64,000 bases of DNA from Clostridia bacterium (GTDB lineage: Bacteria > Bacillota > Clostridia > Christensenellales > CAG-314), in NCBI GenBank assembly GCA_036654455.1, contig JAVVRZ010000001.1:62001-126000 (forward strand). Reading direction: 5' to 3'. Below the pieces are notes generated by a model, which saw only the letters and a list, made by a program, of their open reading frames with translations, had not been told where the DNA came from and searched no databases. Positions 3,938 to 33,900 of the stretch are shown piece after piece; position 1 is the stretch's first letter, and every line of letters begins with the position of its first letter. A program made the translations under genes and the position numbers.

Positions 3938-4984
3938 ATGAAAAGCGTATTTAATTGTTTGACCGCCGTATGCGTAATTGTAGGTTGCGTAATCGGCGCA
4001 GGGTTTGCTAGCGGTAAAGAAGTTTTAATTTTTTTCTATCAAGGCAACCCATTATTGGTTTTTATATCTTGCTTTATTTTATTTTTTGTAGGCACTGTGT
4101 TATTTTTAATAGCTTCAAATAGATATAAAATTTATGATACTCATATTCTTTTTTACAAGATATTTGGCAGACTAAATATAATTTTTGAATTGCTAATAAA
4201 TTTAGCTTACTTTATTGTGCTTGCGACTATGCTCGCAGGCTCTAATTTGTGTCTTTCAAAGATTTTTAATACAAGTTCGATTTTTCCTTTCTTTTCGCTT
4301 GCAACGGCAATTCTTTGCGGTTACGCTTTAAATCACGATATTTCGGGGTTAAAATTTGTAAATGTCTTAGCCGTACCGCTAATTATTGTTTTTATTATAT
4401 ATATTTGCCTGCAAAGGGGAGATGCGTCTGTCGTTTGCGAAGGGCAAAGGCTTAGCTCGTCTTTAAGTTACTCAGCCTTCAACTGTATTATGATGTGCGG
4501 TGTTTTGTTGCCCTTAGGAAAGGGTTTGAATAAAAAAGAATGTGTTATTACATCTTTAATTTCTTCTTTATTTCTTTCGGCGTTAGTTGCATTAATTTTG
4601 CAAAGAATTAATCAAGGCGTATTTTTAGACACGCCTATGCCTCTAATATCACTTGCAAAAGAACGCGGAATTATACCCTTTTATTTAGCAAGCGGAGCGT
4701 TATATTTATCTATCGTAACAACGCTTGTAAGCAACGCTTTTCCGCTTGTAAGAAGTTTAGGCAACGTAGTAAAAGATAAGACAGTTTCAACTGCTATTGT
4801 AATGTTTTGCGCTTTAATCTTTTCGCTTGTAGGCTTTGATAATATAATCGAAAAGGCTTATCCGGCAATAGCTATATTTGGTTTAATTGTAATTATATTT
4901 TTACTTGTAGGACTAATATTTGACTATATTTTAGAGAAAAAACGAAGTAAAGAAAGACAAAATCACGATGCGGTTACAAATTAA
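3938..4984 (+). CDS. YkvI-like integral membrane transporter
   Basis: A 348-residue protein with about ten hydrophobic segments. The N-terminal phrase VIVGCVIGAGFASGKEVLIFF (split by a kinked first helix at G-A-G-F-A-S-G-K-E) is the hallmark of the YkvI family, which I place in the LeuT-fold (APC-type) transporter superfamily and whose substrates are not established. The C-terminus is short and basic (LEKKRSKERQN). The start ATG at 3938 lacks a strong ribosome site (upstream bases are TACATTATTGT), so the true start is slightly uncertain, but the first membrane helix begins right after it. The gene converges on the ABC transporter operon, with two hairpins between them. Confidence 0.75.
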   Translation: MKSVFNCLTAVCVIVGCVIGAGFASGKEVLIFFYQGNPLLVFISCFILFFVGTVLFLIASNRYKIYDTHILFYKIFGRLNIIFELLINLAYFIVLATMLAGSNLCLSKIFNTSSIFPFFSLATAILCGYALNHDISGLKFVNVLAVPLIIVFIIYICLQRGDASVVCEGQRLSSSLSYSAFNCIMMCGVLLPLGKGLNKKECVITSLISSLFLSALVALILQRINQGVFLDTPMPLISLAKERGIIPFYLASGALYLSIVTTLVSNAFPLVRSLGNVVKDKTVSTAIVMFCALIFSLVGFDNIIEKAYPAIAIFGLIVIIFLLVGLIFDYILEKKRSKERQNHDAVTN

Positions 4985-16788: not shown

Positions 16789-16976
16789 AGATATGTTCCT
16801 AAGGCGCATAAGCTTTAAAATATAGTTAAAATATATTTAACAAAATTTTATTGGCTCAACAAACTGACAAAATACAAGTTGAGTTTTACCGTCGTTAATC
16901 ATATTAAAACTAATTTTAGCGTTTTAAACTAAATAGTAGCTTTTTGTTGACAAAATTGAGCTGGGGGTGCTTAGTG

Positions 16977-18671
16977 ATGAATTCTAAAATAGTAAGGTTT
17001 AAAAATAAATGTCGAGATAAATTAGGAAAAAATAAGCATTGGATATTGTTGCTCCTTACCTTATTGTTAACTCTACTAATAGTACTTGTTTCCATTAATG
17101 TAAGCGAAATTAGAATAAACAACGAAAGAAATGCAATTTTTGAAACTAAATGGCGACATCTTGATAGCGGAGAAACGACGCTCATTTCTTTGCCTGCCGA
17201 AATAAATGTTTCAAAAAATAGTCCTATTATTTTAACTAATACTTTGCCAAACGAAATAATCGACGGCGTGACTATTCTAGTTACTACCGTTCAGCAAGAC
17301 GTTAGATTATATGTCAACGACAAGTTAATCTACACCACCTTTATACAAGGCGAATCTAATCCAACTAGCGCTGTCCATTTAGTTAGATTGCCCATTGATT
17401 CTGCCGGCGCAGAAATAAAGGTTATATTAAGTTCGCCATATAGCCATTATTCTGGCGCAATTAGTCAAATATACATAGGTAGCAAAGCGGCGAATATGTT
17501 TTTTTTGGTCAAACATAATAGCTTTCAATTTATTATTGGATTTTTACTAAATTTTGTTGGAATATTGTTAACCGCATTGCTTGTTTTTTCTAAAACAAAT
17601 ATTCGTAAAGCTCCGGTTATCTACTTAGGCGCATTTTTTGTTGTTGCGGGTTTTTGGCTAATGACGCAGAGCAAGTTGCTTCAATTTATTTTTCCTTTTC
17701 CAACGGCGATTACGCTTGCAAGTATTTTTTCGTTAACGCTTTGGCCGGTATTTTTAGGATTTTATTTGCATTATAAAATGTATGGTAGAAAGCTAAAACT
17801 AATACAAAAATATATTAGTATCTTTTCGGGCGTATTGAGTATTATTTACGCTGTTATTATATGTTTTAGTCCATCGATTTCTATTAAAGTTTTTCCTACT
17901 TATGTAATTATCCTATCGCTTATTGCAATTACCGAAGCTTTTCTTGTAATTATAGAATGTGTTAAAACAAAAACTTTTTTTGCTGTTTTTGTCTTTGGCA
18001 TCGTAGGGCTAGCCACTTGTGTTTTAATTCAATTTGTTTTATTTTTAACTAACTTAATTAAATATGATAGTTCGCTTTTGCTTACGATAGGATTGTTTGT
18101 CTTTTGCTTAGCTATGCTATTTGATTCGATACACCGCTTTTCAAGAGTATATCAAAACTCTAATAGAGCCGACACTCTTTCCTTGCTTGCTTATACCGAC
18201 GGTTTAACGGGCGTAAAAAACCGTACGGCATTTTTAGAAAGAGTAAATGGCTTTAACATCAATACGGTTAACGCAGTATCGGTTATTATGTTTGATATTA
18301 ATAATTTGAAGGTAATAAATGATTCCTTAGGTCATTTTGCCGGCGATACTTTACTACTTCACTGCGTAGACGTGATAAAAAAGTGCTTGCAACCTAGCGA
18401 CACGCTATATCGTGTTGGAGGCGACGAGTTTGTGGCAATTATACTTCATTCGCAAGACCTTGACCTAGAAGATTATGAGTTGCATTTTGAGGAAAAATTC
18501 GAACAAGAAATAAAGAAGTCGCCCGAATATCAATTAAATATTGCCTATGGTTTTGCAACTTATTCCTCGCTTGATAGGGGACTTTGCGATACGGTGACTA
18601 GGGCTGACGAAAAAATGTATTTATGCAAGAAAAAGCAAAAAGAAATAGCCGAAAATAGTGATTTATCTTAG
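16977..18671 (+). CDS. Membrane diguanylate cyclase, 7TMR-DISM plus GGDEF
   Basis: This enzyme makes cyclic di-GMP from two GTP. The 564-residue protein has an N-terminal membrane anchor (about 20-42), an extracytoplasmic domain (about 45-175) with the beta-rich look of 7TMR-DISM ligand domains, about seven membrane helices (180-400) and a cytoplasmic GGDEF domain from TDGLTGVKNRTAFL (about 410). The active motif is intact: RVGGDEF around 481. The RxxD inhibitory site normally five residues upstream is not present (the sequence there is LQPSD). ATG 16977 was chosen, with GGGGGTG upstream and GTG just before it as an alternative. Ligand unknown. It may act against the EAL protein at 30955. Confidence 0.87.
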   Translation: MNSKIVRFKNKCRDKLGKNKHWILLLLTLLLTLLIVLVSINVSEIRINNERNAIFETKWRHLDSGETTLISLPAEINVSKNSPIILTNTLPNEIIDGVTILVTTVQQDVRLYVNDKLIYTTFIQGESNPTSAVHLVRLPIDSAGAEIKVILSSPYSHYSGAISQIYIGSKAANMFFLVKHNSFQFIIGFLLNFVGILLTALLVFSKTNIRKAPVIYLGAFFVVAGFWLMTQSKLLQFIFPFPTAITLASIFSLTLWPVFLGFYLHYKMYGRKLKLIQKYISIFSGVLSIIYAVIICFSPSISIKVFPTYVIILSLIAITEAFLVIIECVKTKTFFAVFVFGIVGLATCVLIQFVLFLTNLIKYDSSLLLTIGLFVFCLAMLFDSIHRFSRVYQNSNRADTLSLLAYTDGLTGVKNRTAFLERVNGFNINTVNAVSVIMFDINNLKVINDSLGHFAGDTLLLHCVDVIKKCLQPSDTLYRVGGDEFVAIILHSQDLDLEDYELHFEEKFEQEIKKSPEYQLNIAYGFATYSSLDRGLCDTVTRADEKMYLCKKKQKEIAENSDLS

Positions 18672-21636: not shown

Positions 21637-21665
21637 AAAGCCTAAGTAATTTACTTAGGCTTTTT
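21637..21665 (+). terminator. Rho-independent terminator after the aquaporin gene
   Basis: AAAGCCTAAGTAA pairs with TTACTTAGGCTTT, followed by TTTTG and TTTTT. Confidence 0.88.
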
Positions 21666-21788: not shown

Positions 21789-21817
21789 TTGACAATAATT
21801 TATCTAATTGATATTAT
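21789..21817 (+). promoter_or_regulatory. Promoter of the rex-adhE-hydrogenase operon
   Basis: TTGACA (21789-21794), 17 bases, TATTAT (21812-21817). The palindrome TTATCGATAA (21819-21828, followed by CAA) overlaps the likely start of transcription and could be an operator, but it does not match the Rex consensus well. Confidence 0.75.
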
Positions 21818-21860
21818 ATTATCGATAACAAAATATCTATTAAATATAGGAGGGACTGCG

Positions 21861-22496
21861 ATGGAAGGCATCTCACAAGAAGGGTTACAAAGATTACCAT
21901 CATATTTAAGGCTACTTAGAGAATTTAAACAGCAGGGGATAGAAAGTGTTTCTTCAACTACAATTGCCGATAAATTAGGGCTTAACTCAATCTCGGTACG
22001 CAAAGACTTAGCTAGCGTAAGCGTAGATGGCGGTAAACCTAAGACCGGGTTTTGCGTAGTTGATTTAATTGAAGAAATATCTAATTTTTTAGGATACAAC
22101 AATATAAGCGAAGCGATTCTTGTTGGAGTAGGCAAATTAGGTAGAGCTTTGCTAAGTTATAAGGGCTTTGCTAATTATGGATTAAATATTGTAGCTTCAT
22201 TTGACAGTAATGCGGATATGCTTAGCGTAGACCCAAAGGGTAAGCCAATATTTATGGTTAAACGCTTGCCCGACCTAGTTAAGCGACTTAATATAAAAAT
22301 CGGCATCATAACCGTTCCTGCCGAAGGGGCGCAAGAAGTATGCGACTTAATGATAAAATCAGGTATAAAGGCAATTTGGAATTTTGCCCCAATTCACCTT
22401 GTAACGCCAAGCAATATTGCAATAAAAAACGAAGATATGGCGGCTTCTCTTGCTGTATTATCGCAAAGGTTAGCAGAAATACTTAAAAACGACTAA
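21861..22496 (+). CDS. rex: Redox-sensing transcriptional repressor Rex
   Basis: Rex binds NADH or NAD+ and represses fermentation and respiration genes when NADH is low. The 211-residue protein has an N-terminal winged helix (SQEGLQRLPSYLRLLREF then a recognition helix LNSISVRKDLA around 41-51) and a Rossmann domain with LVGVGKLGRAL (residues 87-97). The ATG at 21861 follows AGGAGG; an upstream TTG at 21789 is the promoter -35 and not a start. adhE begins 21 bases after the stop, so Rex probably controls its own operon, including the hydrogenase genes. No perfect TTGTTAA-N4-TTAACAA site was found. Confidence 0.94.
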   Translation: MEGISQEGLQRLPSYLRLLREFKQQGIESVSSTTIADKLGLNSISVRKDLASVSVDGGKPKTGFCVVDLIEEISNFLGYNNISEAILVGVGKLGRALLSYKGFANYGLNIVASFDSNADMLSVDPKGKPIFMVKRLPDLVKRLNIKIGIITVPAEGAQEVCDLMIKSGIKAIWNFAPIHLVTPSNIAIKNEDMAASLAVLSQRLAEILKND

Positions 22497-22517
22497 AAAT
22501 ATAAAGTTGAGGTATAT

Positions 22518-25115
22518 ATGAAAGATTACATAGTAAACGACCAAGAAACGCTTTCTCGTCGCTTAGACGAATGTAGACAGGCGCAAAAGGAATACGCTAA
22601 ATTTACCCAAGAGCAAGTCGACGCTATCTTTTTTGCTAGCGCTATGGCTGCAAATAAGGCTCGAATTCCGCTTGCAAAAATGGCGGTAGAAGAAACCGGT
22701 ATGGGTATTGTAGAAGATAAAGTTATAAAAAATCACTATGCCGCCGAATATATCTATAACGCCTATAAGGATACAAAAACTTGTGGCGTAATTGAAAGAG
22801 ATTCGGCTTACGGCATAACCAAAATTGCCGAGCCATTAGGCATTATCGCAGCCGTAATTCCTACGACTAATCCAACCTCAACGGCTATATTTAAGGCTTT
22901 ACTTGCCTTAAAAACTCGCAATGGTCTTATTTTTAGTCCTCACCCTCGTGCTAAAAAATCTACGATTGCGGCGGCTAAAATTATTCTTGACGCTGCGATA
23001 AAAGCCGGCGCTCCGCAAAATATTATTTGTTGGATAGACGAACCTACGGTAGAACTTTCGGGACAAATTATGAAAGAAGCTGACATTATTCTTGCAACCG
23101 GAGGCCCGGGTATGGTAAGAGCGGCTTATAGCTCCGGTAAACCTGCAATCGGCGTAGGCGCAGGCAATACTCCGGCAATTATCGACGATTCAGCCGATAT
23201 TTTACTTTCGGTAAACTCCATAATACACTCAAAAACATTAGATAATGGTATGATATGCGCTTCCGAACAGTCAGTAATTGTGCTTGACAAAGTATATAAG
23301 CAGGTTAAGGCAGAGTTTAGCGCAAGAGGCTGTTACTTCCTAAATCCCGAAGAAACGCAAAAGGTACGCAAAACTATTATAATTAACGGTTCGTTAAACT
23401 CAAAGATAGTAGGTCAATCTGCTTATAAAATTGCCGAACTTGCCGGAGTTAGCGTAGACCCCCAAACAAAGATATTAATTGGCGAAGTCGAGAGCGTAGA
23501 ACTTAGCGAAGAATTTGCTCACGAAAAACTTAGCCCTGTTCTTGCAATGTATAAAGCTAAAGACTTTGAAGACGCCGTTTATAAAGCGGAACGTTTAATT
23601 GCCGATGGCGGATACGGACATACTTCCTCGATTTACATTGACGAAATAAATAATTGTGGTAAAATAGAAGTATGGCAGGCAAGAATGAAGACTTGCCGTT
23701 GTCTAATCAATACTCCTTCCTCGCACGGCGGTTTAGGCGACCTATACAACTTTAAACTTACACCCTCGCTAACATTAGGTTGTGGCAGTTGGGGCGGTAA
23801 CAGCGTAAGCGAAAACGTAGGCGTAAAGCACCTACTTAACATTAAAACAGTAGCGGAGAGGAGAGAAAATATGTTATGGTTTAGAACGCCTCAAAAGGTG
23901 TATTTCAAAAAAGGTTGTTTGCCAGTTGCCCTTGACGAGCTTAAAAGCGTACTAGGCAAAAAGAAAGTTTTTATTGTAACCGATAGTTTTCTTTACAATA
24001 ATGGATATACCAAGCCAATTACCGATAAATTAGACCAACTGGGAATAACTCACACGACGTTTTATAATGTTGCTCCCGACCCTACGCTTGCTTGCGCAGA
24101 AGAAGGCGCTAAGGCTATGGAACAATTTAAACCTGATTGTATTATTTCTTTGGGTGGCGGTTCGGCTATGGACGCAGGGAAAATTATGTGGGTAATGTAC
24201 GAACACCCCGAAATAAACTTTATGGATTTAGCTATGAGGTTTATGGATATTCGCAAAAGAGTTTACACTTTCCCCAAAATGGGCGAAAAAGCCTATTTTA
24301 TAGCAATTCCCACCTCGGCTGGCACAGGTAGCGAGGTAACCCCGTTTGCGGTAATTACCGACCAAACAACCAACGTTAAATACCCTCTTGCCGACTATGA
24401 ATTAATGCCAAATATGGCAATAGTCGACGCAGATATGATGATGTCAGCTCCAAAGGGCTTAACGTCTGCCTCCGGTATAGACGCCGTAACTCACGCTCTT
24501 GAAGCATACGCAAGTTTACTTGCAACTGATTACACAGACGGACTAGCCTTGCAAAGCCTTAAAATGATATTTAAATATCTTCCTCGTGCATACGACAACG
24601 GTCAAAACGACAAACTTGCGAGAGAAAAGATGGGCAACGCCGCTACAATGGCTGGTATGGCGTTTGCAAATTCCTTTTTGGGTGTTTGTCACAGTATGGC
24701 GCATAAATTAGGCGCTTTCCATCACCTTCCGCACGGCATAGCTAACGCATTAATGATTGACCAAGTTTTGCTATTTAACGCAAGCCAAGTTCCAACAAAA
24801 ATGGGCACGTTTTCGCAATACGACCATCCGCATACGTTAGAAAGATATGCTGAAATAGCCGATTTCTTAGGACTTTCAGGTAAAAATGACAATGAAAAAC
24901 TTGATAATTTAATTCTGGCTATTGACGAACTAAAAACAAAAGTTGGCATTAAAATGACAATTAAAGATTACGGCGTAGACGAAGCCGACTTCCTCGCTCG
25001 CTTAGACGAAATGACTGAACAAGCATTCGACGACCAATGCACGGGAGCAAATCCAAGGTATCCGCTAATGAAAGAAATTAAGCAAATGTATCTAAACGCT
25101 TACTACGGTAAATAG
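22518..25115 (+). CDS. adhE: Bifunctional acetaldehyde-CoA/alcohol dehydrogenase
   Basis: AdhE turns acetyl-CoA into ethanol in two NADH-using steps and regenerates NAD+ in fermentation. The 865-residue protein is the full fusion: an aldehyde dehydrogenase domain (1-440) with catalytic Cys247 in GMICASEQS and the glycine-rich GVGAGNTPAI, then an iron-dependent alcohol dehydrogenase (about 455-865) with GGGSAMDAGK and the metal-binding 'HSMAHKLGAFHHLPHG'. The family forms spirosomes. It is preceded by rex with 21 bases between, and is a classic Rex target. Its 3' end is nine bases before the kinase-like gene with AGGAGG between. Confidence 0.97.
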   Translation: MKDYIVNDQETLSRRLDECRQAQKEYAKFTQEQVDAIFFASAMAANKARIPLAKMAVEETGMGIVEDKVIKNHYAAEYIYNAYKDTKTCGVIERDSAYGITKIAEPLGIIAAVIPTTNPTSTAIFKALLALKTRNGLIFSPHPRAKKSTIAAAKIILDAAIKAGAPQNIICWIDEPTVELSGQIMKEADIILATGGPGMVRAAYSSGKPAIGVGAGNTPAIIDDSADILLSVNSIIHSKTLDNGMICASEQSVIVLDKVYKQVKAEFSARGCYFLNPEETQKVRKTIIINGSLNSKIVGQSAYKIAELAGVSVDPQTKILIGEVESVELSEEFAHEKLSPVLAMYKAKDFEDAVYKAERLIADGGYGHTSSIYIDEINNCGKIEVWQARMKTCRCLINTPSSHGGLGDLYNFKLTPSLTLGCGSWGGNSVSENVGVKHLLNIKTVAERRENMLWFRTPQKVYFKKGCLPVALDELKSVLGKKKVFIVTDSFLYNNGYTKPITDKLDQLGITHTTFYNVAPDPTLACAEEGAKAMEQFKPDCIISLGGGSAMDAGKIMWVMYEHPEINFMDLAMRFMDIRKRVYTFPKMGEKAYFIAIPTSAGTGSEVTPFAVITDQTTNVKYPLADYELMPNMAIVDADMMMSAPKGLTSASGIDAVTHALEAYASLLATDYTDGLALQSLKMIFKYLPRAYDNGQNDKLAREKMGNAATMAGMAFANSFLGVCHSMAHKLGAFHHLPHGIANALMIDQVLLFNASQVPTKMGTFSQYDHPHTLERYAEIADFLGLSGKNDNEKLDNLILAIDELKTKVGIKMTIKDYGVDEADFLARLDEMTEQAFDDQCTGANPRYPLMKEIKQMYLNAYYGK

Positions 25116-25124
25116 GAGGAAAAT

Positions 25125-25871
25125 ATGAATTTAGAAAGAATTATAGCCGTTAGAACAAGTAAAACAATCTATAAAGACGGCGGAACTGTAATTAAACTAT
25201 TTGATAAAGATTATTCTAAGGCAGACGTGCTTAACGAAGCCTTAAATCAATCAAGAGTAGAACAAACCGGACTTAATATACCGAAGGTAAGAAGCGTTAA
25301 TATGCTAGACGGCAAATGGTCAATAACAATGGATTATATAGCCGGTCAACCGCTAGATAAATTAATGTTAAAATATCCCGAAAAAACAAACGAATATCTC
25401 AACTTATTTGTTGATTTGCAAATGACTATGCACGGGTGCGTATGTCCGCTACTCAACAAATTAAAAGATAAGATGGATAGAAAAATTGACGAAACTACAC
25501 TCGACGCAACTATCCGTTACGAATTGCATACAAGACTAAACGGTATGCCAAAGCACGCTAGGTTGTGTCACGGCGATTATAATCCAAGCAATATTATCGT
25601 AGGTGACGACGGAAAACTTTATATTCTTGACTGGTCGCACGCAACGCAAGGCGACGGTAACGCAGACGTAGCTCGAACATATCTATTGTTTAGGCTACAA
25701 GGCGGAGATTTAGCCGACAAATACCTCAAAATGTTTTGTAAAAAAAGCGACACCCCCAAACAAGCTATACAACAATGGTTGCCAATAGTTGCCGCAAGCC
25801 AATCGGTTAAGGGCAAACCCGAAGAAAGAGAATTTCTCTTGAAATGGGTAGACGTAGTAGATTTTGAATAA
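25125..25871 (+). CDS. Aminoglycoside-phosphotransferase-like kinase
   Basis: A 248-residue protein with the APH/choline-kinase version of the protein kinase fold. The catalytic loop is LCHGDYNPSNIIV (about 147-159; H-G-D...N) and the metal-binding Asp lies in YILDWSHA (about 166-173). The N-lobe has a glycine-containing strand and a lysine in TVIKLFDKD. Family members phosphorylate small molecules, and some phosphorylate proteins; I cannot tell the substrate. The gene lies between adhE and the NuoE-like genes, tightly spaced on both sides, so it shares their expression. A phosphatase is encoded four genes later, which invites the idea of a kinase/phosphatase pair. Antibiotic resistance is unlikely in this context. 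Confidence 0.78.
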   Translation: MNLERIIAVRTSKTIYKDGGTVIKLFDKDYSKADVLNEALNQSRVEQTGLNIPKVRSVNMLDGKWSITMDYIAGQPLDKLMLKYPEKTNEYLNLFVDLQMTMHGCVCPLLNKLKDKMDRKIDETTLDATIRYELHTRLNGMPKHARLCHGDYNPSNIIVGDDGKLYILDWSHATQGDGNADVARTYLLFRLQGGDLADKYLKMFCKKSDTPKQAIQQWLPIVAASQSVKGKPEEREFLLKWVDVVDFE

Positions 25872-25884
25872 GGAGATTAAAAAT

Positions 25885-26133
25885 ATGATTAAATTAGCTA
25901 TTTGTATGGGTACAACTTGCCACCTTAGAGGTAGCAGAGAAATAATAGAGCAATTACAACAATTAATCAGCGACAATAATCTTAAAGATAAAGTAGATAT
26001 GTCGGGCAAATTTTGTCTAGGAAGATGTTCTACAAAAGGCGTAAGCGTTAATTTAGACGGCAAAGACTTTGATTTGACGCCAGAAGAAACTAAACAGTTT
26101 TTTGACACGGAAATATTAGGGAGGCTTAAATAA
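25885..26133 (+). CDS. NuoE-like thioredoxin-fold [2Fe-2S] protein, copy 1
   Basis: An 82-residue electron carrier that matches only the C-terminal [2Fe-2S] domain of NuoE/HydC. The cluster ligands are C-x4-C in ICMGTTCHLRG (Cys6? and Cys11 by count from the ATG) and C-x3-C in FCLGRCS. Such subunits pass electrons between NAD(P)H-oxidising flavoproteins and [FeFe]-hydrogenases. ATG 25885 follows AAGGAG (25870-25875). It overlaps the next gene by one base (TAATG). No NuoF-type flavoprotein is encoded nearby. Confidence 0.85.
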   Translation: MIKLAICMGTTCHLRGSREIIEQLQQLISDNNLKDKVDMSGKFCLGRCSTKGVSVNLDGKDFDLTPEETKQFFDTEILGRLK

Positions 26134-26399
26134 TGATGAAATTATTAGTATGCGTAGGTAGCAGTTGTCACTTAAAAGGTTCGTACGACGTTATACAGCA
26201 GATGATGAAGATAATTAAGAAATACGGCGTAGAAGACCAAGTCGATTTACAAGCAAGCTTTTGCTTAGGAAATTGCGCTAATGGCGTAATGCTTAAAGCA
26301 GATGAGATGTTGCTTCACAATGTCAATATTGACAATGCCGAAGATATCTTCTTAAAAGATGTTTATCCAATTCTTAATAAAGAAAAAGGCTCGTTATGA
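26133..26399 (+). CDS. NuoE-like thioredoxin-fold [2Fe-2S] protein, copy 2
   Basis: An 88-residue paralogue of the preceding gene with the same two cysteine pairs: VCVGSSCHLKG and FCLGNCANG. The conserved 'SSCHLKGS' and 'ASFCLGNC' positions align with 'TTCHLRGS' and 'GKFCLGRC' in copy 1. Translation is coupled by a one-base overlap at its start and a four-base overlap (ATGA) at its end with the sensory hydrogenase. Two adjacent copies suggest either two electron paths (one per hydrogenase) or a heterodimer. Confidence 0.85.
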   Translation: MMKLLVCVGSSCHLKGSYDVIQQMMKIIKKYGVEDQVDLQASFCLGNCANGVMLKADEMLLHNVNIDNAEDIFLKDVYPILNKEKGSL

Positions 26400-28105
26400 C
26401 AAACTGCTTAGACTTTAAAGACGCAAGCTGTAAAAATTGTTATAAATGCTTGCGTAATTGTCCTGTTAAGGCAATCACTATTATTAACCATCAGGCAAAA
26501 ATTATCGAAGACCGTTGTATTTTATGTGGCAAATGCACTTGTATTTGCCCGCAAAACGCAAAAATCGTGCATAGCGAAATTAAAGACGTTATGGCTTTGC
26601 TAGCCGGTAAATCAAAGGTAATTGTGACTGTTGCGCCTTCGTATGTGTCTAGCTTTGGCGTCGACAATTTTTCGGTTATGAAGATAGCCTTAGGTAAACT
26701 CGGCTTTTATGACGCCGAAGAAACAGCGGTAGGGGCAAATTTTGTTGTCAATAGGTACAAAGAATTACTTGAAACTGGCAAATATAAAAATTTTATTACC
26801 TCTGCTTGCCCTGCGGTAAACAGATTAATTCAACTGTATTACCCCAAAGCTTTGCCTTATCTTGCCGAAGTCGATTCTCCTATGATTGCTCACGCAAAGA
26901 TATTGCGTAAACAATATGGTAAAAATGTTAAGATAGTTTTTGTTGGACCTTGCATAGCCAAAAAACGTGAAGCGCAAGAGAGCGAATTGATTGATTCCGT
27001 ACTTACGTTTGAGGAACTTCAACAATTATTTGACGAAAAGAATATTGTATTTAGCGAGATAGCGCATTTAAATATTTCTAGTCAGGAACAACCTGCAAAT
27101 ATGGCTAAATTTTTCCCGATTAATAGGGGAATAATTAAGTCGTTGTCTAATTGGCCTAGCGGATACGAATACGTGGCAGTAGACGGCGTCGATAAATGTA
27201 TGGATATTCTTGAAAATATAGATAAATTGTCGGGAATGTTTCTCGAACTTAACGCTTGCGAATATGCTTGCGTAAATGGTCCGTGCAGTTTGACAAAAAA
27301 AGGTCAGGCAATCAAGGCAAATGAAGAAATAAGACGTTATGTCACCAAAGATATTTCTAAGGCATTGCCTCCTGCAAAGATAATGCCCGAAGACATTAGA
27401 ATAGATACAATTTATCCTAGACTTAAAAACAGTAGTAAGCCCATTACCGACCACGAAATTACTGAAATTTTAGCTAAAATTGGTAAAACTAAGCCCGAAG
27501 ACGAATTGAATTGTAGCGCCTGCGGATATTCTACGTGTAGACAAAAGGCTTGGGCGGTAGCTAACGGTTACGCCGAGCTGGATATGTGTTTACCGTTTAT
27601 GAGAGAGCGAGCCGAAACTATGTCTTACGAAATTATTCAAAACAGCCCTAACGGCATTGTTGTATTGGATAGCGACTTAAAAGTGTTAGATATGAATGCT
27701 AAGGCTATTGAATTGTTAGGCGTAAACACCCAAAATGTTAAAGGGCGTGATTTTGTCGAATTTGCAAATCCCACCGACTTCTTACTAGCACAAACTCAAC
27801 ATAGAAATTTATATAGAAAGAGAGTTACTCTCGACAAAACTAAAAAATATGCCGAACTTACCATAGTAACGTTAGCTAATCAAAACGCAATGTTTGCCAC
27901 AATTAAAGATATTACCGACGAAGTCAGTTATGACGAAAAACTTGCAAAAGTGCGCCTAGATACAATAGCTACAACCGACGACGTAATTAAAAATCAAATG
28001 AGAGTTGCTCAGGAAATAGCGTCTTTACTAGGTGAAACTACGGCTGAAACTAAGGTTGCATTGCTTAAACTCAAAAAAGTTCTTACCGAGGGTAAGAATG
28101 AATAA
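26396..28105 (+). CDS. Sensory-type [FeFe]-hydrogenase with PAS domain (HydS-like)
   Basis: A 569-residue protein. Residues 1-60 are a double [4Fe-4S] ferredoxin (CKNCYKC, CILCGKCTCIC). The H-cluster domain follows (about 70-330). L1 is TSACP (135-139), so the usual proton-relay cysteine is Ala137 while ligand Cys138 remains; L2 is GPCIAKKRE (Cys186); L3 is ELNACEYACVNGPC (Cys288, Cys292). Then comes an Fe-S motif CSACGYSTC (about 372-380) and a PAS domain (about 410-530). From memory, these are the traits of group C hydrogenases such as HydS, believed to sense H2 or redox state and not to catalyse quickly. ATG overlaps the previous stop by four bases. A sensory role is inferred. Confidence 0.85.
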   Translation: MTNCLDFKDASCKNCYKCLRNCPVKAITIINHQAKIIEDRCILCGKCTCICPQNAKIVHSEIKDVMALLAGKSKVIVTVAPSYVSSFGVDNFSVMKIALGKLGFYDAEETAVGANFVVNRYKELLETGKYKNFITSACPAVNRLIQLYYPKALPYLAEVDSPMIAHAKILRKQYGKNVKIVFVGPCIAKKREAQESELIDSVLTFEELQQLFDEKNIVFSEIAHLNISSQEQPANMAKFFPINRGIIKSLSNWPSGYEYVAVDGVDKCMDILENIDKLSGMFLELNACEYACVNGPCSLTKKGQAIKANEEIRRYVTKDISKALPPAKIMPEDIRIDTIYPRLKNSSKPITDHEITEILAKIGKTKPEDELNCSACGYSTCRQKAWAVANGYAELDMCLPFMRERAETMSYEIIQNSPNGIVVLDSDLKVLDMNAKAIELLGVNTQNVKGRDFVEFANPTDFLLAQTQHRNLYRKRVTLDKTKKYAELTIVTLANQNAMFATIKDITDEVSYDEKLAKVRLDTIATTDDVIKNQMRVAQEIASLLGETTAETKVALLKLKKVLTEGKNE

Positions 28106-29267
28106 TATGGAACTTTTTTTAGAAAACGGCTTTGTGTCGGTAAATAAAAATGGCGAAGAACTTTGTGGAGATAGCGTTGAAAGTCGTATTTGCGGTGATT
28201 ATACTACTCTTGTGCTTGCCGATGGGCTAGGTAGCGGAGTTAAAGCCAATATTTTATCAATTCTTACCTCAAAAATTCTTTGCACAATGGTATCTAATAA
28301 TATACCAATAGAGGAATGTATAGAAACAGCCATACAAACTTTGCCTGTTTGCAAGGTTAGAGGCATAGCTTACTCTACTTTTTCGGTTATTTATGTCAAC
28401 AAACAAGGACAAGGGTTTTTGTATGAGTTTGACAATCCGCAAGCAATATATTACCACGAAGGAAGATGTATTGACTTTGACCGTGAAGAACTTATTATTT
28501 CCGGCAAAAAAGTATATCGCACAAAATTGAGTCTAGTAGAAGACGACGTTGTTCTTGTTATGTCGGACGGCACAATTCACGCAGGTATAGGTATGATACT
28601 TAATTTTGGTTGGCAACGCAAAGAAATTATCGAGTATTTAGACCGTACAATTAAGAAAGGTATGTCGGCTAGATGTATAGCTTGTTTGCTAACAAGCGCC
28701 TGCAATGACTTATATCTAGATAAGCCCGGCGACGATACAACGGTAGCTGCCGTTCGCATAAGGAAAAAACTCGTAGTCGATATTATGGTCGGCCCGCCGG
28801 TAGATAAAACCAAAGACGACTTCTACATTGATAGGTTTTTAAGCGGGAATGGTAAAAAAGTCGTTTGCGGAGGCACAAGTTCAATTATTGTAGCTAGACA
28901 CTTAGGCAAAGAAGTGCGTACAAAATTTGATTTTCCCGATAAAGATATTCCGCCGATAGCCACTATTGAGGGCATTGACCTTGCAACCGAAGGCGTGCTT
29001 ACAATAAGGAAATTGCTCTCGCTTGCCGAAAAATATCTTTCTCCCAACGACCTTACGCCTAAATTTTTTACAAAACAAGACGGAGCTTCGTTGCTTGCCG
29101 ATATTTTATTTGAAAAAGCGACTCACATTAATTTTTATGTTGGGCAAAGTATAAATTCTGCCCACCAAGATTTGCCAATAGATATTACAATGAAGTTAAA
29201 ATTAGTAGAAGCAATCGCAAAGAGCTTGCAAAAAGCAGGCAAACAAGTCACCGTACTTTACGATTAA
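28098..29267 (+). CDS. SpoIIE-type PP2C phosphatase linked to hydrogenase
   Basis: A 389-residue serine/threonine phosphatase. The SpoIIE/PP2C domain (1-235) keeps the metal-binding aspartates in DSVESR, VLADGLGSG, VMSDGTIHAG and DDTTVAAV. The last 150 residues (VDIMVGPP... onward) form an extra domain; the central GGTSSIIVARHLG stretch looks like a nucleotide or ligand fold I do not recognise. It overlaps the sensory hydrogenase by eight bases, which means coupling. The related Hfs cluster of Thermoanaerobacterium has, as I recall, a SpoIIE-like phosphatase among its hydrogenase genes. ATG 28098 was preferred (GAGGG before it); ATG 28107 is an alternative. Its target protein is unknown; no anti-sigma antagonist is seen. 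Confidence 0.8.
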   Translation: MNNMELFLENGFVSVNKNGEELCGDSVESRICGDYTTLVLADGLGSGVKANILSILTSKILCTMVSNNIPIEECIETAIQTLPVCKVRGIAYSTFSVIYVNKQGQGFLYEFDNPQAIYYHEGRCIDFDREELIISGKKVYRTKLSLVEDDVVLVMSDGTIHAGIGMILNFGWQRKEIIEYLDRTIKKGMSARCIACLLTSACNDLYLDKPGDDTTVAAVRIRKKLVVDIMVGPPVDKTKDDFYIDRFLSGNGKKVVCGGTSSIIVARHLGKEVRTKFDFPDKDIPPIATIEGIDLATEGVLTIRKLLSLAEKYLSPNDLTPKFFTKQDGASLLADILFEKATHINFYVGQSINSAHQDLPIDITMKLKLVEAIAKSLQKAGKQVTVLYD

Positions 29268-29306
29268 ACTTTACAACAATCATAAAATATATTACAGAGG
29301 TAAAAA

Positions 29307-30737
29307 ATGAGAATTTTTGATACAAACGTTCAATTACTTAAATATAACACTTTAAAAGAAGTCATTAGACACATTGATAGAGAAGATATGGCGGATATTT
29401 ATATTGATATTCCTAAAACAATAGCTCCCGGTCCTAAGGCTATGAATAGGTGTTGTATTTACAAAGAAAGGGCAGTTTTGCAAGAAAGAATTAAACTTGC
29501 CTTAGGTGGCGACACAAGCAACCCCAATGTAATTGAAGTAATAGATATCGCTTGCGACGAGTGTCCAATAGACGGTATTATGGTCACCGATGCGTGTAGA
29601 GGCTGTATTCAACACCCTTGCAAAGAGAACTGTCCTAAAAATGCAATTACCATTATTAATAAGCACGCTGTAATCGACAAAGATAAATGTATTGAGTGTG
29701 GCAAATGCGTAAAGGTATGTCCGTATAGCGCAATAATTCAACAGCGTAGACCGTGTATTGCAAGCTGTAAAGTTAACGCAATCTCTATGAGCGAAGATAA
29801 AAAAGCTCGAATTGACAACGACAAGTGTATCTCTTGCGGAGCGTGCGTTTATCAGTGTCCTTTCGGCGCAATGAGCGACAAGTCATTAATTACTCAAACG
29901 ATAGAAATACTTAAACAATCTGCAAATAATCAAAATTACAAAGTTTACGCAGTAATTGCGCCAAGTATTGTAAGCCAATTTAAATACGCTCGCATCGAAC
30001 AAGTCGTAACCGGCATTAAGATGTTAGGATTCCACCAAGTTGTAGAGGCTGCCTTAGGCGCAGACATTGACCTGCACTTAGAAACCGAAGAACTTGTTGA
30101 AAAAGGATTGTTACTTACTTCTTGTTGTCCGTCGTTTGTAATGTATGTTGAGAAATTTTTCCCCGAACTTGCTAAATACATTTCAAACAACGCTTCGCCA
30201 ATGATACAAACTGCAAGGTTAATTAAGGCAACCGACCCAACGGCAAAAATTGTCTTTATAGGTCCGTGCAGTAGCAAAAAAATAGAATACAAATTGCCAA
30301 AGACGGGGGGAGCGATTGATTGTGTAATTTCATTTGAAGAACTGCAAGCATTTTTAGACGCTCGTGATATTGACGTAGCGCATCTAAGCGATACTGTGCT
30401 AAATAACGGTTCTTTCTATGGTAGAATTTTTGCAAAGAGCGGAGGAATTGTCGAAGGCATTACTTATCAGGCTAAAAAATTAGGTATTGACGTTTCTTCG
30501 GTTTCTATGAATGGTATTAGCGAATGTAAGACCGAACTGTTTAAGCTTAAATTAGGCAGAGCGACTGCGAAATTCTTTGAAGGTATGGCTTGCGAAGGCG
30601 GTTGTATTAATGGCGCATTGTGCCTAACTCACGGAGCTAAAAATTCGGTTGATGTTGATAAATACGGCAATGAGGCAAAAGAAAAAGATATTACTAATTC
30701 GGTTGAAATATTTAATTTAAATAAAAATCAAGATTAA
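29307..30737 (+). CDS. [FeFe]-hydrogenase, catalytic type (Hfs/group B-like)
   Basis: A 476-residue enzyme that probably evolves H2. Residues 80-190 hold several [4Fe-4S] motifs (CDEC...CRGC, CKENCP, CIECGKCVKVC, CISCGACVYQC). The H-cluster domain follows: L1 TSCCP (271-275) keeps both cysteines, L2 is IGPCSSKK (Cys321) and L3 is GMACEGGCINGALC (Cys429, Cys433). There is no plant-type [2Fe-2S] N-terminus, and the L3 end differs from the GGGQP form of classic CpI-type enzymes. It is the last gene of the operon, 40 bases after the phosphatase, and is followed by a terminator. The maturases HydE, HydF and HydG are not in the window. Confidence 0.88.
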   Translation: MRIFDTNVQLLKYNTLKEVIRHIDREDMADIYIDIPKTIAPGPKAMNRCCIYKERAVLQERIKLALGGDTSNPNVIEVIDIACDECPIDGIMVTDACRGCIQHPCKENCPKNAITIINKHAVIDKDKCIECGKCVKVCPYSAIIQQRRPCIASCKVNAISMSEDKKARIDNDKCISCGACVYQCPFGAMSDKSLITQTIEILKQSANNQNYKVYAVIAPSIVSQFKYARIEQVVTGIKMLGFHQVVEAALGADIDLHLETEELVEKGLLLTSCCPSFVMYVEKFFPELAKYISNNASPMIQTARLIKATDPTAKIVFIGPCSSKKIEYKLPKTGGAIDCVISFEELQAFLDARDIDVAHLSDTVLNNGSFYGRIFAKSGGIVEGITYQAKKLGIDVSSVSMNGISECKTELFKLKLGRATAKFFEGMACEGGCINGALCLTHGAKNSVDVDKYGNEAKEKDITNSVEIFNLNKNQD

Positions 30738-30790
30738 TAATCATAAACTATCAACCCAGTTAAAGTCATAAATTTAATAGCAAAATATAT

Positions 30791-30825
30791 ATAAAACTGT
30801 CTATTTAGGCAGTTTTATATTTTTT
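30791..30825 (+). terminator. Terminator of the rex-hydrogenase operon
   Basis: ATAAAACTG pairs with CAGTTTTAT, loop T-CTATTTAG-G, followed by ATTTTTTG. Confidence 0.82.
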
Positions 30826-30954: not shown

Positions 30955-33900
30955 ATGAAATTAAACAAACTTTTTAGGGTTTTATCGCTTGTATTAATCG
31001 CTATTTTAGTAGCGACCTCTTTTCCTTTACAGTTCTTTTCAGTTTATGCGTTGCCAAGCGGAAAGTTTAAAGAAAGAAAACCGCTTAGAGTAGGGTTTTT
31101 TGAATTTGACGGTTATCATAATGTATCAACAGACGATAAAGGCAATATAAGTCGCAGTGGCTATGGTTACGAATATTTGCAAGAATTAGCCAAGATTACA
31201 GGCTGGAATTATGATTATATAGATACTAACTCCAAAAAAGAACCTTTGTCCTGGAAGGACGCCCAACAAATGTTGATAGATGGCGAAATTGATATTTTAA
31301 CTTCGGCTCAGTATAATGCAGAAAGGGATAAAATATTTGATTATCCCGACCAAGATATGGGGCAGAGCTACATAATTCTTACCGTTAAGAAGGGTGAAAC
31401 GCATTATACTTATAATGGATTTGAAGAATTTAACGGAATGAATATCGGTTTTCTTAACAACAATAGCCGTAACGCTCAATTTGAAAAATTTGCAGAAGAA
31501 AAAGGCTTTACCTACAATGAAAAGTTTTTTGACGAACAAAGCAAGCTTTCACAAGCATTAGAAGATGGAGAAGTCGACGCAATTCTTACTAGCAATTTGC
31601 GTAGGCTTGCCGATTATGAAAAAGTTATAGCTAAGTTTAATCATTCTCCTTTTTACGCAGTAGTTAAACAAGGTAATAACGACTTGCTTGACGACCTTAA
31701 TAGAGGGCTAGAAGAATTAGCGACAAGGTCGCCTTTTCTTAACGCTACGTTATATCAAAAGTATTATGGTAATAATTCGGGCGCAGGGATTGCCTTAACT
31801 TTTGAAGAAGAAGAATATCTTCAACAAAATCCTATTATTAAAGCCGTAGCCATAGGCAAGCAAAAGCCCCTTTCTTATTTTGAAAACGGCGAATACAAAG
31901 GCATACTTGCCGATATTTTAAAGCAAATTGCCAAAGAACTGGATATTGAATTTGCTTTTACCGAAGTTGCGACAGCAGAAGATTGCTATGCAATGCTTAA
32001 TGCCGGCGAAGCTGAATTTATTAGCAATTTTGCCTCAGATTTTTCGTGGGCAGAGCAAAATAACATAAGAATAACTTCTCCTTTGCTTGACTTAAAGTAT
32101 AGCGCAGTAACAAGCAATAAAAATCATAATGAAAAAAGAACAGTTGCAACGCCAAGGGACCAATATTTAACCTTAGTATTTTTAGATAAAATTTATCCTA
32201 TCGAGAATATTTTGCTTTATGACAATGTTCAAGATTGTATAGACGCCGTTAAACAAGGCGATGCGGATATAGTTTACCTAGATACTTTTTCGGCAAACGA
32301 GGTTTCTAAACATGCTAGCAATGGTATGACGGCATTTTTTACCAACTCAATTAACCACGGCGTATCGCTAGGCATTCGTAAAGACAATCCAATGTTGCAA
32401 ATTATATTAGATAAAGAAATTCTTTCTCTAAGCGAAATGTATATCAATCAAATTGTAACGCAACACACAATGTTTAAGATTGATAGATATGATTTTGCTG
32501 AGTTAATTTATCAAAATCCCTTTGAATTTGCAATGTTTCTTATTGTTTTATTTCTTATAGTTGTTGGAATTTTAATTTACATTATAATTATGCGTAAAAA
32601 ATTGCATAAACATATATACAACCTTGCCTATATAGACGAGCTTACTGGCCTATGGAATAGTCATAAATTTGAGGAAGAAATACCCAAATTATTGCAATAT
32701 GCCAAAGACGACTTAAATTACGCTATTGTTTCTATGGATATCAAGCGTTTTGCCTTGATAAACGAAAATTATGGAAGATATATCGGCGATAAAATTATTA
32801 AATATGTTGCAAAAGCAGTAAGCGAGCTTGAAATTAACGGTTCAAAGGTATCAAGAAATAAAGCAGACCACTTTTTTATTCTACTTAAATATAATACCAT
32901 TGACGATATTAGATTTGTGCTTGCTAATTTAAATCAATCTTTGGCAAATTATACCGACTACAATACCGACATTAGACTTAAATTTAACTATGGCGTATAT
33001 ATCTACGATGATTTAGAAATGCCAATATCTTCGGCGATTGACTTTGCCGAATTAGCAAGGCGTGAAGTTAAGAATAGTAAAGAGCCGATAGTTTTCTTTG
33101 ATAAAAATTTTGAAGAGCAACTAAAAAAAGAAAAACGCATAGAACAAGCTATGGAAAATTCGTTAGAAACTAACGAATTTGTGGTTTTCTATCAACCAAA
33201 ATTTAATATGACTACAAATAAAATAATGGGGGCGGAAGCGCTTGTTAGGTGGAATAACAAAATTTACGGATTTATGTCGCCAGCCGATTTTATTCCAACT
33301 TTTGAGAAAAACGGCTTTATTATCGAAGTAGACTTTTTCGTACTTGAAGAAGTTTGCAAAATGCTACGTAAAAGGTTAGACGAAGGCAAAGTATGCGTGC
33401 CTATATCCGTAAATCAATCACGTATACATTTTCAATCAGCAAATTATATCGAGCATATACAATCAGTTGTCGATAAGTATAGTATTCCGTCTAATTTAAT
33501 TGAGCTAGAAATTACCGAAACAGTATTAGTTACAGCCGAAAGTACCTATAATGTTTCAAAAATTTTGAAAGGGCTAGGTTTTAGGTTGTCGGTTGACGAC
33601 TTTGGTTCGGGGTATTCTTCTTTGACTATGCTCAACGCAGTCAAACTAGACGTGTTAAAAATCGATAGAGCTTTTTTAAGCGAATCACAAACTTCTGTGC
33701 GGGCAAGAATAATTATACAAAAAGTAATTGAAATGGCTGATAAACTTGATATGGAAGTTATTTGCGAAGGCGTAGAAACAATACAGCAAGTTGAGTTTTT
33801 AATTAGCGTAGGTTGCAATTATGGACAAGGTTTCTTGTTTGCCCGTCCAATGCCTCTTGAAGAATTTACCGTTCTTTTTGACCATTCCATTAAATCATAA
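30955..33900 (+). CDS. Ligand-sensing c-di-GMP phosphodiesterase: two SBP domains, degenerate GGDEF, EAL
   Basis: A 981-residue membrane protein. After a signal anchor (about 8-32), two periplasmic-binding-protein-like domains follow (about 42-270, 'KPLRVGFFEFDGYH', and about 290-510, 'IIKAVAIGKQKPLSYFENGEYKG'). A single membrane helix (about 523-547) joins them to a GGDEF-fold domain. Its signature is degenerate (NKADHF near 633 instead of GGDEF), so it should be inactive or GTP-sensing. The EAL domain (about 720-975) has E-A-L-V-R-W (about 760), the N-Q-S-R, E-I-T-E, D-D-F-G-S-G-Y-S-S and K-I-D motifs and EGVET, and is thus expected to hydrolyse c-di-GMP. An amino-acid-like ligand is likely. 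Monocistronic, with a promoter and terminator of its own. Confidence 0.88.
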   Translation: MKLNKLFRVLSLVLIAILVATSFPLQFFSVYALPSGKFKERKPLRVGFFEFDGYHNVSTDDKGNISRSGYGYEYLQELAKITGWNYDYIDTNSKKEPLSWKDAQQMLIDGEIDILTSAQYNAERDKIFDYPDQDMGQSYIILTVKKGETHYTYNGFEEFNGMNIGFLNNNSRNAQFEKFAEEKGFTYNEKFFDEQSKLSQALEDGEVDAILTSNLRRLADYEKVIAKFNHSPFYAVVKQGNNDLLDDLNRGLEELATRSPFLNATLYQKYYGNNSGAGIALTFEEEEYLQQNPIIKAVAIGKQKPLSYFENGEYKGILADILKQIAKELDIEFAFTEVATAEDCYAMLNAGEAEFISNFASDFSWAEQNNIRITSPLLDLKYSAVTSNKNHNEKRTVATPRDQYLTLVFLDKIYPIENILLYDNVQDCIDAVKQGDADIVYLDTFSANEVSKHASNGMTAFFTNSINHGVSLGIRKDNPMLQIILDKEILSLSEMYINQIVTQHTMFKIDRYDFAELIYQNPFEFAMFLIVLFLIVVGILIYIIIMRKKLHKHIYNLAYIDELTGLWNSHKFEEEIPKLLQYAKDDLNYAIVSMDIKRFALINENYGRYIGDKIIKYVAKAVSELEINGSKVSRNKADHFFILLKYNTIDDIRFVLANLNQSLANYTDYNTDIRLKFNYGVYIYDDLEMPISSAIDFAELARREVKNSKEPIVFFDKNFEEQLKKEKRIEQAMENSLETNEFVVFYQPKFNMTTNKIMGAEALVRWNNKIYGFMSPADFIPTFEKNGFIIEVDFFVLEEVCKMLRKRLDEGKVCVPISVNQSRIHFQSANYIEHIQSVVDKYSIPSNLIELEITETVLVTAESTYNVSKILKGLGFRLSVDDFGSGYSSLTMLNAVKLDVLKIDRAFLSESQTSVRARIIIQKVIEMADKLDMEVICEGVETIQQVEFLISVGCNYGQGFLFARPMPLEEFTVLFDHSIKS

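Follow-up and report, generated by a model that had tools for sequence, protein, structure and literature searches.

In Ruminococcus albus, genes in the order rex-aad-kinase-2Fe2S-2Fe2S-hydS-phosphatase-hydA2 reportedly form a transcriptional unit, as attributed to Zheng et al. 2014. HydA2-type enzymes use ferredoxin, and the HydA2 transcript of R. albus is 90-fold lower in the presence of a H2 consumer, with ethanol falling too (PMC10838669). In Clostridium thermocellum, the genes Cthe_0422-0432 are down-regulated together after furfural (PMC3848806). Adaptive evolution of the same species yielded mutations in both the non-coding and the coding region of Cthe_0422, and expression of the operon was maintained in hydrolysate (PMC3804516). 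As for regulators, DAP-seq in C. thermocellum has established that the protein Rex_2471 binds TTGTTAANNNNTTAACAA, this canonical Rex being the only one for which it reported a motif.

The window analysed here, a stretch of 64,000 nucleotides from a Clostridia bacterium, contains eight co-directional genes on its + strand (21861-30737), coding for Rex, AdhE, an APH-like kinase, two [2Fe-2S] proteins, HydS, a SpoIIE phosphatase and a group B [FeFe]-hydrogenase. A first-pass annotation had described eight genes with short gaps or overlaps running from one good promoter to one terminator, and this description holds: the gaps measure 9-39 nt, the overlaps do not exceed 8 nt, and terminators are found on both sides. 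The intergenic distances are 21 nt between rex and adhE, 9 nt between adhE and the kinase gene, and 13 nt between the latter and the first [2Fe-2S] gene; overlaps of 1, 4 and 8 nt then come in succession, and 39 nt precede the last gene. The upstream bound is a terminator belonging to the aquaporin (MIP) gene ahead of the operon (21637-21663, + strand, a 12-pair stem with a T run), and the operon ends at a terminator of its own (30789-30820, + strand, a 14-pair stem with a T run). Its predicted promoter, TTGACA-N17-TATTAT with an extended -10 (TG before the -10; 21789-21817, + strand), matches at 11 of 12 positions and is the joint best in the 12 kb scanned. The earlier start at 21789 belongs to the -35 box, and the rex ATG is at 21861. 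An Rfam search detected no RNA element. We also observed that genes related to cyclic-di-GMP lie nearby, as a GGDEF protein (16944-18671) and an SBP-GGDEF-EAL protein (30955-33900) flank the operon region.

Promoter-like sites do exist inside the operon, but their number (34, versus 36.4 +/- 5.6 expected from shuffles) is at chance level, so that they are no evidence for or against internal starts. Together with the splitting of the block in two relatives, L050 and L041, the latter having a hydS block and an adhE-APH block with a site each, they could be taken to indicate a loose neighbourhood giving rise to several transcripts. We consider this highly improbable, given that the gaps only range from -8 to 39 nt, that no terminator-like site is found on the + strand between the operon genes, and that the counterpart region of C. 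thermocellum is co-regulated.

The first gene (21861-22496, + strand) codes for a Rex protein of 211 aa, whose score with the curated model NF003994 (272.9 bits) is well above the cut-off of 130 and which the tree described below places in a clade that we call Rex-2. It is followed by adhE (22518-25115, + strand), for a bifunctional acetaldehyde-CoA/alcohol dehydrogenase (NF010378, 1386.5 bits for a cut-off of 951), and by the APH-like kinase gene (25125-25871, + strand), whose product scores above the Pfam cut-off (PF01636, 54 bits) and retains the HGDxNPSN and DW motifs. Two thioredoxin-like [2Fe-2S] proteins, both with PF01257, are encoded at 25885-26133, from the ATG at 25885, and at 26133-26399 (+ strand). 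The SpoIIE-type (PP2C) phosphatase (28098-29267, + strand; PF07228, 42.9 bits, above the Pfam cut-off) has retained its metal-binding Asp motifs, D42G43, D157G158 and D212D213.

Two [FeFe]-hydrogenases had been announced in the operon, and two are indeed present; one, however, is of the sensory type. Group C, or PAS-type, sensory [FeFe]-hydrogenases have been defined previously (PMC8163306), and HydS (26396-28105, + strand; Fe_hyd_lg_C, FeS and PAS domains) has the features of this group, namely two N-terminal [4Fe-4S] motifs, an H domain in which all four H-cluster Cys ligands are present (C138, C186, C288 and C292), a C-terminal Cx2Cx4Cx16C motif (C373-C376-C381-C398) and a PAS domain (PF00989, 37 bits). 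Its proton-transfer Cys is replaced by Ala (TSACP), and the first Met by Gly (GPC). The other hydrogenase, encoded by the last gene (29307-30737, + strand), is a monomeric group B enzyme of the HydA2/HfsD-like type (TIGR04105, 523.6 bits for a cut-off of 450) with an intact L1/L2/L3 set and the TSCCP, GPC and MACxxGC Cys ligands.

The joining of rex, adhE and a kinase gene to hydrogenase genes was initially regarded as a notable new arrangement. It was correctly seen but over-rated, as the operon is a further case of the published R. albus/C. thermocellum type. On plasmid pRUMAL01 of R. albus 7 (NC_014824), eight genes are found in identical order and strand, for Rex, AdhE, a phosphotransferase, two 2Fe-2S proteins, a hydrogenase, a SpoIIE phosphatase and a 4Fe-4S hydrogenase. 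Identities with the proteins of the operon are of 40-73%, those of the 2Fe-2S genes being of 38-45%, and the last hydrogenase is 54% identical to the protein at the position of R. albus HydA2. The same head, rex-adhE-APH-2Fe2S-hydS-spoIIE, is present in genome G405, which we take to be that of C. thermocellum ATCC 27405, and further Clostridia have it too. The gene-neighbourhood comparison proposed at the outset thus revealed a conserved order, in full in R. albus and for the head, with rex, adhE and APH genes upstream of hydS, in 10 of the 75 assessable Clostridia loci. Of 391 genomes sampled from the class, 105 have a HydS relative at 1e-85 or better, and a class-level search, an order-level search and plasmid records were pooled to give 93 HydS loci. 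The SpoIIE gene follows hydS in 71 of 72 assessable loci, and the group B hydrogenase gene does so in 38 of 72. A contig scan with a single HydS query returned no useful relatives. The operon is patchy in its own family, since only two of the 36 other genomes have a full-length HydS relative.

The phylogenetic tree of Rex proteins comprises two clades separated with a support of 100/100. The canonical clade, of the QIRQDLNCFGGFGQQGYGY type, includes Rex_2471 of C. thermocellum, whereas the Rex-2 clade, of the VRKDLAxVSxxGKPKTGY type, holds the operon Rex together with Rex_1799/Cthe_0422 (Clo1313_1799). In Rex-2 proteins the helix/wing region is altered, with VRKDLASVSVDGGKPKTGF versus IRQDLNCFGGFGQQGYGY in the canonical ones. 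The best match to the canonical operator TTGTTAANNNNTTAACAA at the operon promoter is 10/14, which is background, as the window contains 147 sites with at least 10 matches. The promoter thus lacks the site that would mark the operon as part of the canonical clostridial Rex regulon.

What is new about the operon is a predicted operator ahead of it, which would be read by this second kind of Rex. At 21806-21841 (+ strand), the promoter region carries AATTGATA-TTATAT-TATCGATA-ACAAAA-TATCTATT, with a period of 14. Two overlapping 18-mers, TTGATATTATATTATCGA (21808-21825) and TCGATAACAAAATATCTA (21822-21839), are embedded in this sequence, which overlaps the -10. The tandem TATCGATA motif creates TCGATA-N6-TATCGA, an inverted repeat of 18 bp that shares its geometry with the canonical site. 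Tandem TATCGATA units, with a period of 14 or 15, are common to the relatives that have rex in the operon. Upstream of rex, inverted TCGATA half-sites are separated by a gap of 6 in 17 genes and of 7 in five, any other gap occurring at most twice, and 6 is also the spacing of the canonical TTGTTA-N6-TAACAA. The site precedes 21 of 37 Rex-2 genes, whereas all 26 canonical rex genes lack it (Fisher 9e-7); for the Rex-2 loci outside motif discovery the count is 12 of 25, against the same 0 of 26 (3e-5), both values being inflated by ties among related genomes. After shuffling, 0.26% of the upstream regions had a comparably strong site. No TCGATA site was found within 450 bp of the other 16 Rex-2 genes. 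In a literature search with TATCGATA and Rex, the matches listed were all unrelated papers; we found no earlier report of a TCGATA operator, although Ravcheev 2012 or RegPrecise may hold one.

As the motif precedes hydS operons, another regulator, for instance at the end of a HydS-SpoIIE chain, might bind TCGATA while Rex-2 acts at ordinary Rex sites. Several observations make this quite unlikely. With a strict score, hydS operons without Rex-2 lack the motif, except where Rex-2 sits elsewhere in the genome, and conversely rex-2 genes outside hydS operons carry it (loci L184 and L186), so that by its distribution the motif follows rex, not hydS. In addition, the motif has the same 18-bp geometry as the canonical Rex operator, and Rex-2 is altered in its helix/wing, as described above. 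We thus favour Rex-2 as the reader of this site.

The position of the predicted operator is also informative. In 11 of 21 Rex-2 promoters it begins 4-5 bp past the -10 hexamer or precisely one 14-bp unit further upstream, and the promoter of our operon belongs to the latter group. Steric repression would require a fixed register of this kind relative to the -10. R. albus-like loci have a gap of 7 bp between the half-sites, and their site does not lie at the -10, suggesting that the repression mechanism may differ there. Genome G038, whose rex-2 gene is elsewhere, has just two exact matches in all, one at the adhE-APH promoter and one at that of the 2Fe-2S-hydS block. In this split operon (L041), the operators are at 4668 and -584 relative to hydS, an arrangement that would be consistent with control in trans. 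A one-mismatch site of the same genome (L245, G038:C3:152886-152903) is located 61 bp before the NAD-linked gene for GAPDH, which suggests a small Rex-2 regulon that reaches past the operon. The sole exact match of genome G043 stands ahead of the operon rex, and in C. thermocellum all matches with no more than one mismatch over 16 positions are located before rex. In the host genome (1.37 Mb, in 36 contigs and 95% complete), six one-mismatch sites occur, of which two overlap each other at the operon promoter, three are within reading frames, and one, C5:7523, is in a short opposite-strand frame between genes. Allowing up to two mismatches, the 12-base pattern is not over-represented in the host genome (62 versus 99 in the control), and thus no wider regulon is visible. 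We propose that a second, widespread clade of Clostridia Rex proteins, of the Cthe_0422/Clo1313_1799 type, probably reads its own operator, TCGATA-N6-TATCGA, often repeated in tandem every 14 bp, at the -10 or immediately downstream of it, and thereby keeps a local ethanol/hydrogen operon apart from the global Rex regulon.

The possible phosphorylation control noted earlier could mean that the kinase and the phosphatase are antagonists, which phosphorylate and dephosphorylate one common target (AdhE, HydS or Rex) and divert electrons between ethanol and H2. The conservation of the catalytic motifs in both proteins is in line with this view, and so is the high ethanol production of Thermoanaerobacterium after loss of the HydS homologue HfsB. 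However, the kinase gene is present in only 17 of 75 HydS loci, compared with 71 of 72 for SpoIIE, and is thus not an obligate partner of the phosphatase. In hydS loci it directly follows all 22 AdhE copies more than 70% identical to that of the operon but none of the seven distant ones (45-48%), which indicates that it tracks the AdhE subtype rather than the phosphatase and weakens the idea of a pair. By sequence, the solved structures closest to it are, weakly, those of small-molecule kinases. Altogether, an antagonistic pair appears unlikely.

The operon is rather likely to be an ethanol and H2 outlet of the R. albus/C. thermocellum type, with Rex-2 autorepression at the tandem TCGATA-N6-TATCGA, relief by NADH at high H2, and a HydS-SpoIIE branch. 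Rex releases DNA when NADH rises, and AdhE uses NADH. The operon would provide electron outlets for H2 build-up, with AdhE converting acetyl-CoA and NADH to ethanol and the group B hydrogenase producing H2, presumably from reduced ferredoxin. Rex-2 bound to the tandem sites over the -10 and just downstream would block transcription. Accumulation of H2 would slow HydABC, the bifurcating enzyme whose genes lie elsewhere in the genome, causing NADH to rise and Rex-2 to leave the DNA, and the genes for ethanol and H2 production as well as rex itself would then be expressed. HydS may sense H2, as its family suggests, and use its PAS domain to pass a signal on to the SpoIIE phosphatase, and the APH-like kinase, which travels with the AdhE subtype, may act in that branch. 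The decrease of R. albus HydA2 with a H2 consumer and the Cthe_0422 mutations of C. thermocellum agree with such NADH gating. As to the coordinated switching between ethanol and H2 suggested by the first-pass annotation, coordinated control is well supported, in part through the published data on R. albus HydA2 and Cthe_0422-0432.

Two further [FeFe] genes are found on contig C3 of the host genome (G000:C3:43500-57500, L130), one in the HydABC-type set and the other, adjoining it, for a PAS-less, group D-like hydrogenase of 419 aa with HATPase, PHP-like and DRTGG-like genes. ATPase genes flanking a PAS-less hydrogenase represent the arrangement reported for group D (PMC8163306). This locus would give the small genome a second, separate module for H2 sensing.

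HydS has previously been guessed to be the transcriptional regulator of the operon, and the operator and the second Rex clade now offer a testable switch. The operon influences the ethanol and H2 yields of cellulose or rumen fermenters. Rex-2 and its predicted operator could also explain why the furfural- and hydrolysate-responsive region of C. thermocellum does not behave like the canonical Rex regulon, and through which site the upstream mutation carried by the hydrolysate-tolerant strain may have its effect.

Among known systems, the hfsABCD set of Thermoanaerobacterium shares with the operon a HydS-like protein (HfsB), a phosphatase (HfsC) and a HydA2-like enzyme (HfsD) (PMC11837493). These three parts match the description, with no counterpart of HfsA identified; hfsABCD consists of four genes without rex, adhE or kinase, which are extra in the operon. 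The R. albus unit is plasmid-borne, its proteins are 38-73% identical to those of the operon, and its operator has a half-site spacing of 7 and is farther from the promoter. Cthe_0422-0432 of C. thermocellum shares the head of the operon and has a four-unit operator after the -10, but a single 2Fe-2S gene precedes hydS, and NuoE, NuoF and Fe-hydrogenase genes follow instead of that for the group B enzyme; this bacterium also has a second, canonical Rex (Clo1313_2471). Finally, Rex-2 and the canonical clostridial Rex with its operator TTGTTAANNNNTTAACAA have their family and the 18-bp inverted-repeat geometry in common, but they form separate clades and differ in the half-site, TTGTTA for the canonical proteins and TCGATA for Rex-2.
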